In this document: positions 8,720 to 56,076 of the stretch, piece after piece
Position numbering within the stretch: position 1 is the first letter of the stretch
Layout of the letters: the number at the start of each line of letters is the position of its first letter
NCBI RefSeq assembly: GCF_000154725.1
Contig: NZ_DS544873.1
Location: 3,175,397-3,239,396 of the forward strand
Reading direction: 5' to 3'
Length of the DNA stretch: 64,000 nt
DNA from: Kordia algicida OT-1
GTDB lineage: Bacteria > Bacteroidota > Bacteroidia > Flavobacteriales > Flavobacteriaceae
Notes under the pieces: generated by a model
Databases searched by the model: none
Told to the model about the DNA's origin: nothing
Seen by the model: the letters and a program-made list of their open reading frames with translations, nothing else
Made by a program: the position numbers and the translations under genes

Positions 8720-8935
8720 ATGAAAAAAAGAAGTTTAAAATCGTTAAGCCTTAACAAAAGATCAATTTCTAACTTGAAATTCCATGACGTTGTTGGTGGT
8801 CGCGCAAATTTAACTGCCGATGTAAAGGATTGTCCTGATAATACATTGGCTAAGGATTGTGAATCTTTAGGGTATTGTCCTGACTCTTTTTGGTGCCAAG
8901 AGCCATCGAGTTCGTCAGATGGACCTGTTGCATAA
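8720..8935 (+). CDS. Class I lanthipeptide-type precursor peptide
   Basis: The 71-residue peptide has a basic leader MKKRSLKSLSLNKRSISNL ending in a Gly-Gly at residues 26-27. This matches the Bacteroidota precursor family whose leaders read 'LKSLxLNKxxISNL'. The core after GG carries four Cys spaced C-x8-C-x5-C-x5-C plus several Ser and Thr, ending PSSSSDGPVA. Such peptides are normally cut after GG on export and may be cyclised by a LanB/LanC pair. No modification or transport gene is within reach here, so modification is inference. It converges with a second precursor at 9032-9238, and a hairpin terminator follows it. Confidence 0.75.
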   Translation: MKKRSLKSLSLNKRSISNLKFHDVVGGRANLTADVKDCPDNTLAKDCESLGYCPDSFWCQEPSSSSDGPVA

Positions 8936-9031: not shown

Positions 9032-9238
9032 TTATCTTCCTCCGCACCATGCGTCTGGATCTTTACTTATACAAATTGAACCATCATCATGTCCTACTGT
9101 TGGGAAATCACAATCACCACGTGTTACATGACAAATCCATCCTGCAGTAAGTATCACACCTCCTTTTAAAGACTTCTGTTCTAAGTTACTCACTGTTTTT
9201 TTGTTTAATTTTAGACTTTTAAAACTCTGTTTTTTCAT
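9032..9238 (-). CDS. Class I lanthipeptide-type precursor peptide
   Basis: The 68-residue peptide has the leader MKKQSFKSLKLNKKTVSNL and a Gly-Gly at residues 26-27, the same length and pattern as the leader of the peptide at 8720. The core holds four Cys (C-x6-C-x12-C-x8-C) and few Ser/Thr, and ends AWCGGR. Leader identity with a different core is typical of RiPP families processed by shared machinery, but no such machinery is present in the window. It is transcribed towards the 8720 gene; each has its own terminator. It may instead yield a disulfide-bonded peptide. Confidence 0.75.
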   Translation of the reverse strand: MKKQSFKSLKLNKKTVSNLEQKSLKGGVILTAGWICHVTRGDCDFPTVGHDDGSICISKDPDAWCGGR

Positions 9239-19016: not shown

Positions 19017-20234
19017 ATGGAAACCCTTATCGCCGAAGTTGAAAAGTATGTGATTGATTTTTTGAATAAGAAAGTAGATCAATCATATGTATATCACAAC
19101 CTTACACATACCAAATCTGTTGTTGCCAAAACTAAAGAACTTATTGAAGGACTCGGAATTGAAGAAAAACAAGCCAACCTACTTATTATTGCGGCATGGT
19201 TTCACGATACAGGTTATGTGAATGGAATTGATGGTCATGAAGAAGAAAGCGTAAAGATTGCCACAGCATTTTTGAAGAATCATGAGATTTCTGAAGAAGA
19301 TTTAAATGTCATCAATCAATTGATTTTGGCAACAAAAATGGGTCGTAAACCTGAGAATTTGTTAGAACAGATTATTTCTGATGCAGATTGTGGACACATT
19401 GGAAGTAAGAATTTTGCAGAAGTTACCGAATTACTCCGCAAAGAAATTGAATTGACACAAGGCGAATCTATTTCAGAGTCAGATTGGTTGAAAGAGAATA
19501 TCCGATTTTTATCTGAACAACATACGTTTCATACTTCATTTGCTTCAAAAAACTGGCAAAAACGGAAAGGAAAAAATCTTGCCAAATTGTTGAAATCAAA
19601 GAATAAGGTTTCTAAAGAAGTAAAGAAGTTAAAGCAAAAGAAAGCCGAACTTAAGTATAAAAAGACAAAAATTAATACGCCAGAACGTGGAATTGAAACC
19701 ATGTTTCGTGTAACGTTAAAGAATCATATTGAACTGAGTAATATTGCTGACACTAAAGCAAACATACTTTTATCGGTAAATGCCATTATTATTTCCTTAG
19801 TATTATCCACTTTAGTGTCAAAATTAGACAAAGCCGATAACGAACATTTAATTGTCCCAACTATTATCTTTACATTATTTACCGTTATTTCTATGGTATT
19901 ATCCATTTTAGCTACTAGACCAAATGTAACGGAAGGAAAATTTGACAAGAAAGATGTAGAAGCGAAGAAAGTGAATTTACTGTTTTTTGGAAATTTCCAT
20001 AAGATGAGTTTGCCTGATTTTGAATGGGCAATTAGTGAAGTCATGAAAGATAGGGATTATTTGTACGGATCACTCACGAAAGATTTATACTTTTTAGGAA
20101 AAGTACTCGATAGAAAGTATAAAATTCTCCGATTGACCTATTTGGTTTTCATGATTGGAATTATCATATCAGTGATTGCGTTTGCTATTGCATTTGCTTT
20201 GCGTCCCGATACACTTCCTATCATTGCAGCGTAA
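19017..20234 (+). CDS. HD phosphohydrolase fused to a Pycsar effector-type transmembrane domain
   Basis: The 405-residue protein begins with an HD domain (residues 1-190): YHNLTHT, the HD pair at 63-64 in AAWFHDTGY, and ISDADCGHIG. A basic coiled linker (about 195-220, KKLKQKKAELKYKK) follows. The rest matches the PycTM/DUF5706 family: MFRVTLKNHIELSNIADTK and NILLSVNAIIISLVLS, plus a second pair of helices near residue 280 and a last helix near 380. In Pycsar defence the PycTM effector is opened by cCMP or cUMP. Here an HD domain, often a nucleotide phosphohydrolase, takes the regulatory place. No cyclase gene is adjacent. Such fusions are widespread in flavobacteria, so a housekeeping nucleotide role is equally possible. 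Confidence 0.85.
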   Translation: METLIAEVEKYVIDFLNKKVDQSYVYHNLTHTKSVVAKTKELIEGLGIEEKQANLLIIAAWFHDTGYVNGIDGHEEESVKIATAFLKNHEISEEDLNVINQLILATKMGRKPENLLEQIISDADCGHIGSKNFAEVTELLRKEIELTQGESISESDWLKENIRFLSEQHTFHTSFASKNWQKRKGKNLAKLLKSKNKVSKEVKKLKQKKAELKYKKTKINTPERGIETMFRVTLKNHIELSNIADTKANILLSVNAIIISLVLSTLVSKLDKADNEHLIVPTIIFTLFTVISMVLSILATRPNVTEGKFDKKDVEAKKVNLLFFGNFHKMSLPDFEWAISEVMKDRDYLYGSLTKDLYFLGKVLDRKYKILRLTYLVFMIGIIISVIAFAIAFALRPDTLPIIAA

Positions 20235-40779: not shown

Positions 40780-41166
40780 TTACTTGGGTTTGGAGTTTTT
40801 TCTGATAGGAATATTAAACTCTTTTTCTGCTAAATCAATCATCATATCAAACAAAATAGCTTTCTTGTCAGCACGCTCCGCCAGATGTTCTGCACGAGCC
40901 TTCTGCTTTTCTAACAGTTTGATTTTTTCTTCTAATTCTAAAATCTTTTGTTCTGGAGTCTTTGTCATAGAAAGTGGAGTTTGATTATGCCAATCAAAGT
41001 TACCATATTTTTTTAACCAAGTTCTGATGGTAGATCCAGATTGTATACCATACTTTGATAAGACTTGTGAGCGTGTCAGTTTGCCCTGTTCAATCTCTTG
41101 AACTACTTGGAGTTTAAAAGATAATGAATAATCTTTTTGAGTACGTTTTACATAATTTGTTTTCAT
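40780..41166 (-). CDS. IS3-family transposase OrfA (HTH)
   Basis: The 128-residue protein has a helix-turn-helix (FKLQVVQEIEQGKLTRSQVL and KYGIQSGSTIRTWLKKYG) followed by a leucine-zipper-like coiled coil (about residues 68-103, EQKILELEEKIKLLEKQKAR). This is the standard OrfA layout. The frame ends six bases before the orfB ATG. A slippery heptamer A AAA AAC (40795-40801) in phase with its codons allows a -1 shift into the orfB frame, with no stop in between. Confidence 0.92.
   Translation of the reverse strand: MKTNYVKRTQKDYSLSFKLQVVQEIEQGKLTRSQVLSKYGIQSGSTIRTWLKKYGNFDWHNQTPLSMTKTPEQKILELEEKIKLLEKQKARAEHLAERADKKAILFDMMIDLAEKEFNIPIRKNSKPK
40795..40801 (-). promoter_or_regulatory. Programmed -1 frameshift heptamer A AAA AAC
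   Basis: On the minus strand the codons AGA AAA AAC of orfA give the heptamer A AAA AAC. After a one-base backward slip the frame reads through without a stop into the orfB ATG codon. Confidence 0.8.
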
Positions 41167-41217
41167 TACGCTTAAAATTTAGTGTAACGCTATTTCAGGA
41201 CGAGACATTTGTAACAC

Positions 41218-41251
41218 AAAAAACGCCTTCTGTAATAGAAGGCGTTTTTTT
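41218..41251 (-). terminator. Terminator after the lipoprotein gene
   Basis: A 14-base stem (AAAAAACGCCTTCT and its complement) with a five-base loop and T runs on both strands, 19 bases past the stop at 41271. The IS element ends 10 bases further on. Confidence 0.88.
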
Positions 41252-41270
41252 AATATATTTTTTTTTGGAA

Positions 41271-42482
41271 TTAGTTTCCTACAGTCCAACCTGCTCCCCA
41301 AGTTGCGTAGTCAGTTCCTGTTCCGTTTCCATCTCCTGAAATTAAATCAGCATCTGTAAACGATACTCCAGTATCATTTTTTACTTTTAGTGTAATGTCT
41401 GTGAATAAGATATCAGTAACAGAAGTTTCTCCACTTGTTACTCCAGCACCTGTTGGGCTGTCAGTATCGTTTCCGTCTAAATCAAATCCTTCAGCATATC
41501 CTTCTAAAGAAACATTGTTAAATGTTGCTCTTGTTCCAGCTCTTAAACGAATTGCTTCACTACTGTTTGCAGATCCTAAACCAATAATTGTAAGGTTGTT
41601 TACTGTTGGTGCAGAGAAATAGATTGGGTTTGAGTTGTTTCCGATGTCAGTGTTAAAACCATCAGCTTCAATTCCTTTGTCATGATCTGCTCCGTGCTTT
41701 ACGTAAGCGTTTGTAATAGTTCCTGTGTAACCTTCTGTCCAGTCGATAGAATCATCTTGTGCATTTACTACAGAAATAAAGTTAGCATTTACAGTTCCAC
41801 CGAAGAACTCAAATCCATCATCTTTTCCTTCAAATACTTGTACATACTCAACAGTCGTTTGGTTTCCAACTCCGTAGAAAGAAACTCCGTTGTTTTCAGA
41901 TTGTCCGTCAGCAGATCCACCAGAGTATTGTACACGAACATAACGTAATGTTCCTGAGTTGTCACTAGCATTAGTTCCACCGTAAGGTAAACTAGCGATT
42001 TCTGAAGTAGAAGTTGCTGTTCCTGATACTGAGTTGATTGGTGCGCTACCTAATAAGATTAATCCTCCCCAGTCTCCAGCAGCAGGTGCAGAAGCATCAG
42101 ATGTAAAAATAATTGGGCAATCAGCAGTTCCTTGTGCATCAATTCTAGCTCCTTGAGAAATAGCTACATATACATCAGCTCCACCAGCTAATGCTTCAAT
42201 AGTCATACATGGAGGAATTGTTAATGTAGTTCCTGATGCCATGATTAATGATCCATTGATTTTGTATGTGTTGTTTGCATCAAGTGTTAAATCTGTAGTG
42301 TATGTTCCAGATAAGAAGATTGTTTGTCCTCCTGTACCTCCAGAACCACCTGTTGTATTGTTGTTAGTGACACTATTATCACTGTTGTCAGTGATATTAA
42401 TATCAGCAGTGTCGTCTGATGCACAAGAAGTCATTAACAATGCTCCTAAAAGTGCGAATCCAAATAATATACGATTTTTCAT
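41271..42482 (-). CDS. Parallel-beta-helix-like lipoprotein paired with a TonB receptor
   Basis: The 403-residue protein has a lipoprotein signal (ALLGALLMTSC). A low-complexity linker (about 22-55, rich in D, N, T, G) leads into a repetitive beta domain: GTYTTDLTLDANNTYKINGS, DWGGLILLGSAPIN, TLRYVRVQYSGG, YGVGNQTTVEYVQVFEGKDD and DGFEFFGGTVNANFISVV. Similar proteins are sometimes mislabelled 'multidrug transporter'; nothing here supports transport. It is the downstream partner of the TonB receptor gene (40-base gap), so it probably works with it at the outer membrane, perhaps as a surface-exposed ligand-binding subunit. Confidence 0.8.
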   Translation of the reverse strand: MKNRILFGFALLGALLMTSCASDDTADINITDNSDNSVTNNNTTGGSGGTGGQTIFLSGTYTTDLTLDANNTYKINGSLIMASGTTLTIPPCMTIEALAGGADVYVAISQGARIDAQGTADCPIIFTSDASAPAAGDWGGLILLGSAPINSVSGTATSTSEIASLPYGGTNASDNSGTLRYVRVQYSGGSADGQSENNGVSFYGVGNQTTVEYVQVFEGKDDGFEFFGGTVNANFISVVNAQDDSIDWTEGYTGTITNAYVKHGADHDKGIEADGFNTDIGNNSNPIYFSAPTVNNLTIIGLGSANSSEAIRLRAGTRATFNNVSLEGYAEGFDLDGNDTDSPTGAGVTSGETSVTDILFTDITLKVKNDTGVSFTDADLISGDGNGTGTDYATWGAGWTVGN

Positions 42483-53552: not shown

Positions 53553-53885
53553 ATGTCAGTAGACATCAACATCAAAATAACAGACCGAGAAGGCGTTGTA
53601 CACGAAATACAAGCGCCAACCGATATGGCAATGAACTTAATGGAAGTCGTACGTTCGTATGAACTCGCTCCCGAAGGAACGATTGGAATTTGTGGCGGAA
53701 TGGCAATGTGTGCTTCGTGTCAATGTTATGTACATTCCGATCATGAATTACCAGAAATGAGCGTTGATGAAGACATGATGTTAGCCGAAGCATTCTACGT
53801 AGAAGACAACAGTCGTTTAGGTTGCCAAATTCAAATGACACCAGCATTGGATGGTTTGGAAGTTGAGTTGGCTCCGGAGAGTTAG
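53553..53885 (+). CDS. [2Fe-2S] ferredoxin (adrenodoxin-like)
   Basis: The 110-residue protein has cluster ligands in GICGGMAMCASCQCYV (C-x5-C-x2-C) and the fourth Cys in RLGCQIQMT, the adrenodoxin/ISC ferredoxin pattern. Acidic stretches (MSVDEDMMLAE) fit partner recognition. It should exchange electrons with the FNR encoded just upstream. Its stop lies four bases from that of the convergent unknown gene. Confidence 0.95.
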   Translation: MSVDINIKITDREGVVHEIQAPTDMAMNLMEVVRSYELAPEGTIGICGGMAMCASCQCYVHSDHELPEMSVDEDMMLAEAFYVEDNSRLGCQIQMTPALDGLEVELAPES

Positions 53886-53889
53886 TTAA

Positions 53890-54615
53890 TCATCCAAAAG
53901 GAAGCAAATCAATCATACCTTCAATTAGAAAATTAACAGCTTTTTTGAAAACCTCTTTTTTTCCTAATTCTAAAATTTCTTTTAATAGTGGTAAACTTTT
54001 CTTCCTAACTTTTGCAAAAAAATTACTAATTCTTTTGATAGTGACCTTTTTAGTCATGTTAGGAATTTCACTTTGAATAATCTCAGCTTCTTGTATTAAT
54101 TCTTGGTTTTCTTCTTCATCAACTTTTAATAGCTTGATTACATTAGTAAAATAGTTGTGAATTATTATTTGTTTATCTAATTCGTATGGTTTGGAATCAG
54201 CATCTTCATCTATTATCTCGAAATTGGTATAGAATTCTTTTTCATATTCATTAAGTATGTGCTCCTCAGGAGTTAGATTAACTTCATTATATGATCTTAT
54301 AAGTTCTGTCCATTCTTCCAAACAAGTCATGACTGAGTTTTCTTGTGTACGAACACTTCGTGGATTAGTCAGTATACTATTTGTAGGATTGTAATCTAAT
54401 TTAAAGACTATAGTATTACTACCGTTTTGTAAAGGTTCAGAAATAGAGAATTTAAAATCAGATAAATTAGACTTATCCTCAATTATTAATTCAAAAGCTC
54501 CGTTTTTAGTTAACTCCAAAATATCACTATTGGATTCTGTAAAAGATCTAGCCTTTTTCATTAATCGTTCTACGGTTTGTATTAGGAGTAATGAATGTCT
54601 TTTTTTATTTATCAT
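53890..54615 (-). CDS. Unknown protein, 241 residues
   Basis: I do not recognise this protein. It is cytosolic, with a basic N-terminus (KKRHSLLLIQTVERLMKKAR), a beta-rich middle (FELIIEDKSNLSDFKFSIS), and a helical half with acidic stretches (IIDEDADSKPYELDKQ) and a C-terminal amphipathic or hydrophobic tail (FLIEGMIDLLPFG). It is very AT-rich relative to its neighbours. Codon structure and length argue that it is a real gene. It has no operon partner on its strand; the ferredoxin gene converges on it with four bases between the stops. Confidence 0.6.
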   Translation of the reverse strand: MINKKRHSLLLIQTVERLMKKARSFTESNSDILELTKNGAFELIIEDKSNLSDFKFSISEPLQNGSNTIVFKLDYNPTNSILTNPRSVRTQENSVMTCLEEWTELIRSYNEVNLTPEEHILNEYEKEFYTNFEIIDEDADSKPYELDKQIIIHNYFTNVIKLLKVDEEENQELIQEAEIIQSEIPNMTKKVTIKRISNFFAKVRKKSLPLLKEILELGKKEVFKKAVNFLIEGMIDLLPFG

Positions 54616-54720
54616 TTCGTGAATTTATTAAGTCTAGAATGAAATTTAACAATATTTTTCAACTATAAAAATAAAGTTTTATCATGATGCAAGTAATGTA
54701 AAGATAGAAATATCTTTAAA

Positions 54721-54936
54721 TTATTTCTCTAGAACAATCTTCTGCACAACATCCAACAAATTATGCACATACGCAGAAGCTTCTAGTTCTACCATGTCTT
54801 TTTGCACACAATACGTTCCTAAATAATGTACTTTCTTTAAAGCTTCAAAATAATCGTGTATTTCGTTTGTGTTTAGTAAGTCTAATAGTTCTTTTTGTGC
54901 ATCTGTGAGTGTTGTAGTTTTTTCGTGTACTGACAT
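54721..54936 (-). CDS. Small unknown protein, 71 residues
   Basis: A helical peptide (TLTDAQKELLDLLNTNEIHDYF, then ALKKVHYLGTYCVQKDMVEL) with no signal or membrane segment, and not recognised. It has one Cys. The normal ATG start, neat length and amphipathic pattern make it plausible, but it could also be a chance frame. It is 105 bases upstream of the 241-residue gene on the same strand. Confidence 0.5.
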   Translation of the reverse strand: MSVHEKTTTLTDAQKELLDLLNTNEIHDYFEALKKVHYLGTYCVQKDMVELEASAYVHNLLDVVQKIVLEK

Positions 54937-55154
54937 GTTAGAGTTAGTTGTGTTTTTTCGATATATAAATATCGAAAATCTAACTTTTAGCAGTGTTCGG
55001 AATAGCGAACATATTGATAATAAGCTGATTAAATGAGTGTTTGTAGTTTTGAATTTTCATGAAAAAAGAATTATTGATTACAGTTTTTAACGGATAAAAC
55101 ATAGTTTACTATCAAACGACAAAAAATAAATTAGTGATAACGATTGATAAAAAT

Positions 55155-55257
55155 TAGGTTGTTTTTGGTCATGCTGAACTAAATGCTGAGTTTATCTAAG
55201 TACAGCATCACAAAAAACTACAAAATAATGTGACACTGAATCAAGTTCAGTGTGACG
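55155..55257. repeat. 103-base dispersed repeat, copy 1
   Basis: Runs from TAGGTTGTTTTTGGTCATGC to CAGTGTGACG and matches 55976-56076. It contains an internal stem CACTGAA/TTCAGTG with a five-base loop. Confidence 0.85.
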
Positions 55258-55484: not shown

Positions 55485-55717
55485 AAAGACGTTTTTATTA
55501 TTTTATTTTCTAATGACACATTAAAAATTGTATTTCGACTGCGCACAAAATGGCTAAGAAAATAATGAGACACTGAATTAAGTTCTGTTTGAATAATAAT
55601 CAAATAAATCATAAAAACTCCTCGATATTTATAAATTACGGTTATAGTTCATTTTTATTCTTTCTTCATTTTGAGTACTTTTAACATAATTATTAATTTT
55701 TTTAAAATTTAATTTTT

Positions 55718-55889
55718 ATGAAAAAAAAAGAATCTTAAATCCCTAAAACTGAACAAAAATGTTATCTCAAATGATTTAAAAAATGTGCAAGGAGGAACTA
55801 TTCCAAAAAATAAAATAAAAGTTCCATCAAACACATGTCAATCAAACTGTGGTGATTGTACAGAAGGTTTTTTTTGTATCAATTTCTAA
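55718..55889 (+). pseudogene. Lanthipeptide-type precursor put out of frame by an A9 run
   Basis: The ATG at 55718 is followed by nine A and a G. Read as written, translation stops at the seventh codon. With one A fewer it reads MKKKNLKSLKLNKNVISND, a leader matching the precursors at 8720 and 9032, then a Gly-Gly at residues 25-26. The 30-residue core ends CQSNCGDCTEGFFCINF, with four Cys. The total is 56 residues with a clean stop at 55889 and a strong terminator. The corrected frame has no start codon of its own before codon 23 (a TGA overlaps the ATG). It is either a real one-base insertion, a sequencing slip, or a gene rescued by polymerase slippage on A9. Confidence 0.8.
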
Positions 55890-55900
55890 TTTATGTATTC

Positions 55901-55925
55901 AAGCGAACTTCGGTTCGCTTTTTTA
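55901..55925 (+). terminator. Terminator after the frameshifted precursor
   Basis: A perfect eight-base stem (AAGCGAAC with GTTCGCTT) closed by a stable C(TTCG)G tetraloop and followed by a T run, 12 bases after the peptide stop. Its presence supports a functional transcription unit. Confidence 0.9.
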
Positions 55926-55975
55926 TTTCTATTTACGATTAAATAATTAAAATGAATAGTAAATACTATTGAAAG

Positions 55976-56076
55976 TAGGTTATTTTCGGGCATGCTGAAC
56001 TGAATGTTGAGTTTATCGAAGTACAGCATCACACAAAACTAAAAATATGCAACACTGAATCAAACTCAGTATGACG
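55976..56076. repeat. 101-base dispersed repeat, copy 2
   Basis: Direct repeat of 55155-55257, sharing the word order TAGGTT, CATGCTGAACT, TGAGTTTATC, AAGTACAGCATCAC, ACTGAATCAA and GACG. Confidence 0.85.

Follow-up and report, generated by a model that had tools for sequence, protein, structure and literature searches.

The window analysed here, a stretch of 64,000 nt from the genome of Kordia algicida OT-1 (5.03 Mb in a single contig, completeness 99.99%), contains a lanthipeptide-type precursor gene that is out of frame by one base directly after its start codon (Table 1). Translation from the ATG gives MKKKES and then ends; the frame from 55722 has 55 open codons and encodes KKKNLKSLKLNKNVISNDLKNVQGGTIPKNKIKVPSNTCQSNCGDCTEGFFCINF followed by a stop, with a leader, a GG and a core that holds four Cys and five Ser/Thr. 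Since a TGA stands immediately 5′ of the 55722 frame, that frame is open without an ATG of its own. The leader reached E = 1.5e-7 in a profile search of the whole genome with a leader model of 20 rows, the gene's own leader among them, so the frame is hardly due to chance. Including the A9 tract at the break, the window has two A/T runs of at least nine, and neither falls within the 49 ORFs taken as coding. A sequence-only reading of this DNA had described the nine A after the ATG with a one-base frame break, an out-of-frame peptide with GG and a four-Cys core, a UUCG-loop terminator behind it and two intact precursors at 8720 and 9032; direct reading bore out each of these features, and the second intact precursor proved to be a minus-strand gene.

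Table 1. Features of the broken precursor gene, its surroundings and its sister genes, in window positions
Feature	Position	Strand	Basis or remark
Intact family precursor, 71 aa	8720..8935	+	ORF translation
Intact family precursor, 68 aa	9032..9238	-	starts at 9238; ORF translation
2Fe-2S ferredoxin-type gene (presumed)	53553..53885	+	also upstream of the G008 ortholog
Promoter-like TTG-N20-TAATTTT	55671..55700	+	begins 47 nt 5′ of the ATG; like arrangement in the G008 ortholog
Start ATG of the broken frame	55718..55720	+	read from sequence
A9 tract	55721..55729	+	directly 3′ of the ATG; G then follows
Leader KKKNLKSLKLNKNVISNDLKNVQGG in the open frame, without in-frame ATG	55722..55796	+	translation; leader model E = 1.5e-7
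Core TIPKNKIKVPSNTCQSNCGDCTEGFFCINF with four Cys, plus stop	55797..55889	+	translation
Intrinsic terminator, 8-bp stem, UUCG loop, T tail	55901..55920	+	folding z = -4.26; conserved in G008

Two ways of reading the peptide from this locus were rejected. An alternative start at the GTG at 55785, the sole start listed in the open frame, would leave almost no leader. The heptamer A AAA AAG is a slippery sequence for −1 ribosomal frameshifting, and a programmed frameshift of that kind fails because, relative to the ATG frame, the peptide is read at +1. The upstream element was called promoter-like by comparison with the Bacteroidota promoter consensus; the full TANNTTTG was absent when the DNA upstream of the gene was checked for a promoter, and a sigma-70 promoter scan showed no excess (five found, 3.4 expected in shuffles). 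Direct repeats of 74 nt (55151–55224 and 55972–56045, 88% alike and 821 nt apart) bracket the precursor, and a 25-nt piece of the repeat had no further copy in 441 kb of partly overlapping loci. The gene on the same strand 1.8 kb upstream presumably encodes a protein of the 2Fe-2S ferredoxin type, as judged from its sequence, and two minus-strand ORFs lie between it and the precursor.

The sequence-only reading also called the precursor an orphan, which is true of its neighbourhood and false genome-wide, where it is one of at least 128 matches to a leader family. At E ≤ 10, a protein search with the peptide yielded 45 genomic matches (the query gene counted), and the profile search with the leader model gave at least 131 (150 of 246 candidates scored). 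Leaving out three partial matches (E 2.36–2.57) yields the family count of 128, itself a lower bound, and these leaders fall in 66 groups separated by more than 10 kb. An in-frame ATG is present in 123/128. Like the broken gene's peptide, 120/123 in-frame sisters carry the GG, and four is the commonest number of core Cys among the GG-bearing ones (30/120). The other Kordia genomes searched have large, dispersed sets as well: leader matches at E ≤ 5 number at least 109–150 per genome across 11 Kordia genomes and are scattered in each.

Genes for lanthipeptide modification are present. PF04738 has one match in the genome and PF05147 has four (matched in 0 and 1 of 14 control genomes, respectively), and at locus L048 LanC, Lant_dehydr_N and Lant_dehydr_C follow one another in that order, a split LanB, with a family leader next. 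This LanB, at C1:3416113, is about 185 kb from the broken gene at C1:3231114 and thus not adjacent to it. C39 peptidases have six matches, the best about 6 kb beyond the LanB/LanC locus, but they are common, occurring in 8/14 control genomes as well, and so lend weak support. Exactly one Lant_dehydr_N occurs in each of the 11 Kordia genomes, the host genome counted in. We infer that the single LanB/LanC would modify the intact form of the peptide, and the whole family, in trans.

These features resemble those of Bacteroidetes class I lanthipeptide precursors, which in the excerpt available of Walker et al. 2020 (PMC7268733) have an LxLxKx5L leader and in many cases a terminal GG. Shared features are the GG, a core of Ser, Thr and Cys, and the presence of LanB/LanC and C39 genes in the genome. 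The leader here reads LKLNKNVISNDL, close to the motif but with six residues between K and L rather than five; the Kordia leader model matches it all the same (E = 1.5e-7). Unlike the precursors described in that excerpt, the broken gene stands alone, far from the single LanB, is out of frame and falls under the cut-off of NF038153. At E ≤ 1 its peptide has no match to this model (>22 bits needed), to which the ortholog in another Kordia genome scores 10.2; 1/12 intact family peptides scanned, that ortholog among them, passed the cut-off. Against TIGR04149 (rSAM-modified RiPP) the peptide reached 13 bits, under the 25-bit cut-off. Because both cut-offs are missed, we name the gene lanthipeptide-type and do not file it as a member of either model. 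The peptide's sole Pfam hit, to DUF1450, was sub-threshold (16.7 bits, cut-off 30.1) and was taken as chance. The family, an intact ortholog in conserved synteny in another Kordia genome and the class I LanB/LanC locus all support the earlier identification of a lanthipeptide-type precursor with a one-base offset at the A-run, and the sequence evidence supports placing the gene in a large, dispersed family of putative class I lanthipeptide-type precursors.

Among ten other Kordia genomes, a close match to the peptide was found in G008 alone (79% identity over 48 aa). The G008 ortholog is intact and in frame, begins ATGAAGAAAAAG and lies 122 bp past the same ferredoxin gene; its A-run is interrupted by a G. 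Nucleotide identity between the two loci is 78% in a 316-nt alignment that begins in the upstream DNA and takes in the terminator, and the ortholog has its own promoter-like arrangement with an N19 spacer at −45. In the window, the two minus-strand ORFs (53890–54936) fill the spot where G008 has only the 122 bp. Pairwise dN/dS between the two genes rises from 0.18 in the leader to 0.34 over codons 1–47 and 0.49 over all 55 codons, values that belong to the pair and are not assignable to the broken gene's own branch. Divergence in the last eight codons is strong, too strong for a dN/dS estimate, and may reflect either early decay or the normal divergence of cores. Ferredoxin loci with 1.5-kb flanks from the other nine Kordia genomes gave no peptide match at E ≤ 1. 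In a search of 397 evenly drawn family genomes, the sole hit at E ≤ 1e-6 was the peptide's source genome; G008 was not among the same-genus genomes listed for that search. A contig scan for relatives of the peptide gave four Kordia records and one Dokdonia MAG, with none of the window's species (own-genome records may be omitted).

The intact sisters show how unusual a run of nine is at a family start. In the first 45 nt of the 123 in-frame members, the longest A-run is 4 in 1 member, 5 in 11, 6 in 35, 7 in 36, 8 in 40 and 9 in none, and ATG followed by A8 is the commonest start (36/123). We permuted the 488 Lys codons of codons 2–12 among Lys positions (5,000 shuffles); within the first 36 nt, 0/123 members had an A-run of at least nine, where 24.0 were expected (shuffle minimum 13), and 39 had one of exactly eight, where 12.4 were expected, a comparison that overstates independence, the paralogs being related. 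Genome G009 shows the same pattern. Of at least 150 leaders listed there (351 candidates), 147 begin at the model's first position, and 40 of these, fetched going down the ranking, all start with ATG; none has a run of at least nine, where shuffling predicts 7.7 (minimum 2). The ceiling at A8 arises from synonymous Lys codon choice, with AAG third after AAA AAA: genes that use AAA for Lys2 and Lys3 have AAG at Lys4 in 32/32 cases, and the others in 4/15 (P = 8e-8). At the counted family starts, long A-runs are avoided rather than maintained. Nine is not forbidden as such, as an in-frame leader gene with ATG and A9 exists at locus L079 (~103), outside the counted 128. The ceiling may extend genome-wide, given that the 49 ORFs of the window (52,990 bases) contain A/T runs of 6, 7, 8 and at least 9 in numbers of 105, 45, 11 and 0. 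The corresponding numbers for the remainder of the window, which includes the broken gene and the two small precursors, are 53, 12, 6 and 2.

The sequence-only reading had proposed that the homopolymer could act as an on/off switch through replication slippage. In a phase-variable switch, tract length would be selected to vary, and ON and OFF cells would coexist in the population. A one-base change does put the gene out of frame, as in a contingency locus, and many sisters stand at A8. In the parts consulted of a survey of prokaryotic poly(A) tracts, tracts lie nearer gene 5′ ends the longer they are (over lengths 5 to 8), the first tenth of genes is enriched in tracts of 5 to 9 A, and a role as reversible switches is proposed for them (PMC2831843). 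However, the tract is interrupted by G in the G008 ortholog, and runs of nine or more occur in 0/123 counted and 0/40 sampled in-frame members. The excess of A8 is about what the breaking of longer runs would give, and 123/128 members are in frame; if the starts were switches, a larger number of OFF copies should be present. This family-wide avoidance of longer runs weakens the idea, which is left unsupported, and we consider a true phase-variable switch improbable. Less probable still is a family-wide form of it, in which the starts are hair triggers: about 30% of the more than 120 precursor genes sit at ATG plus A8, one slip from OFF, so that lanthipeptide production would vary from cell to cell in a clonal population. 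The A9 gene would then be an OFF state caught in the assembly that still leaks some product via slippage.

The gene is one of several broken copies. Five of the 128 leaders lack an in-frame ATG, namely the gene in the window and four others: one at ~C1:251005 that is out of frame and also has an A9 run, one at ~C1:2243065 that is out of frame through an indel whose site cannot be placed, one in which ATA replaces ATG and one that is truncated. A sixth broken leader, in locus L079 at ~C1:1611485 and outside the 128, is likewise out of frame, its indel site again not placeable. Of these three out-of-frame sisters, one, at locus L137, is on the minus strand. Loss of single members therefore seems to be a normal event in this leader family. 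In G009, 1/150 listed leaders lacks an in-frame ATG, frame status having been checked by sequence for 43 and judged from the start of the match for the others; of its three leaders that start later in the model, two are in frame and one lacks an in-frame ATG.

Homopolymers are the usual place for assembly errors, and the ninth A might be an error of assembly or consensus, with the gene intact in the cell. The second out-of-frame leader with an A9 run and the higher share of leaders without an in-frame ATG here than among those listed in G009 both speak for such an error, and the data are still compatible with errors at a few per cent of A8 runs. Against it, the 40 in-frame sisters with A8 in their first 45 nt were read correctly, the 11 A/T runs of eight within the window's 49 ORFs all leave their frames open, 8/10 scanned window ORFs have Pfam domains with no obvious break (the other two have no match), and the completeness of the genome is high. 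We regard an assembly error as unlikely, and as the first of the possible alternatives, followed by leaky rescue through slippage and then by a true switch.

We favour, as the probable history of this locus, a recent one-base expansion of the A-run that silenced one redundant precursor and left a young pseudogene. The A-run after the ATG would recently have expanded by one base in one redundant family gene, and ribosomes starting at this ATG would make MKKKES and then stop, with neither leader nor core made. We infer that the expansion is real, fixed in the strain and recent. Since A8 is the commonest start, a single slip is enough to turn a frequent state into A9. The intact G008 ortholog, the in-frame majority of the family, the absence of runs of nine or more in the counted sisters and the other broken copies together make silencing the most likely reading. 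There is no second stop or frameshift in the 55 codons, which fits a recent loss, as does the pairwise dN/dS of the leader. The conserved promoter-like and terminator DNA would, on the other hand, fit a gene still in use equally well.

A gene that is OFF by sequence could be leaky, with slippage of the ribosome, or of RNA polymerase as the sequence-only reading had also suggested, letting the A9 tract yield a small share of full-length precursor. In favour of this, conservation persists in the core, the terminator and the upstream DNA, and there is a laboratory precedent. In the portion available of the M.HaeIII evolution study, variants with an A inserted in an 8-A repeat survived selection, the frameshift being taken as bypassed (Rockah-Shmuel et al. 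2013, PMC3812077). The two cases are alike in the extra A in an A8 run, and by analogy some product from the A9 tract is plausible; unlike in the M.HaeIII variants excerpted there, bypass in the Kordia gene is a possibility by analogy only. Transcripts of E. coli and Buchnera, in the accessible part of the report, show mainly insertions at A/T runs, 80% of them of one base (PMC5574713), and a one-base insertion, the commonest slip by that account, would yield the third frame and not the peptide. Furthermore, that the sister genes avoid A-runs of at least nine suggests that slippage does harm and is not put to use. Leaky rescue thus seems rather unlikely, and silencing by a recent expansion remains our preferred reading.

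As a short poly(A) start, the broken gene resembles tracts such as that of inlA (Orsi et al. 2010, PMC2831843), where, in the text excerpted, an A-run lies in the first codons and a one-base change silences the gene. Unlike tracts of the inlA type as presented in that excerpt, the Kordia family has a family-wide ceiling at A8, and reversible use is unsupported. Taken alone, the broken gene is unremarkable; of more interest are the A8 ceiling and the presence of one LanB for over 100 precursors. The family amounts to a natural experiment on homopolymers, with more than 100 related starts in one genome whose A-runs end at eight with very few exceptions though the amino acids permit longer ones. 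Our search of the open-licence PMC literature found no report of such a ceiling, nor of a single LanB alongside more than 100 precursors.

The prochlorosin modifying enzyme is a class II LanM. In the excerpt seen of PMC10783134, a single promiscuous enzyme, ProcM, serves many prochlorosin precursors, and the Kordia family resembles that system in its many precursors, conserved leader, varied cores and putatively single modifying enzyme. Unlike the prochlorosins, Kordia has a class I split LanB in place of a class II LanM, and modification in trans is putative here. If a single LanB does serve more than 100 scattered precursors, the prochlorosin system would have its class I counterpart in this family. 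Published accounts, in the passages available, call Kordia rich in RiPPs, lanthipeptides among them (PMC11118758), describe the genus as conspicuous in gene-cluster counts (PMC10734526) and mention a lanthipeptide cluster in K. antarctica (PMC7477175).

Elsewhere in the window, a transposase-like helix-turn-helix gene adjoins a 403-aa ORF without a Pfam match (40780–42482), and an HD domain is fused to a Pycsar effector-type transmembrane domain (PF18967) at 19017–20234, a possible anti-phage gene.
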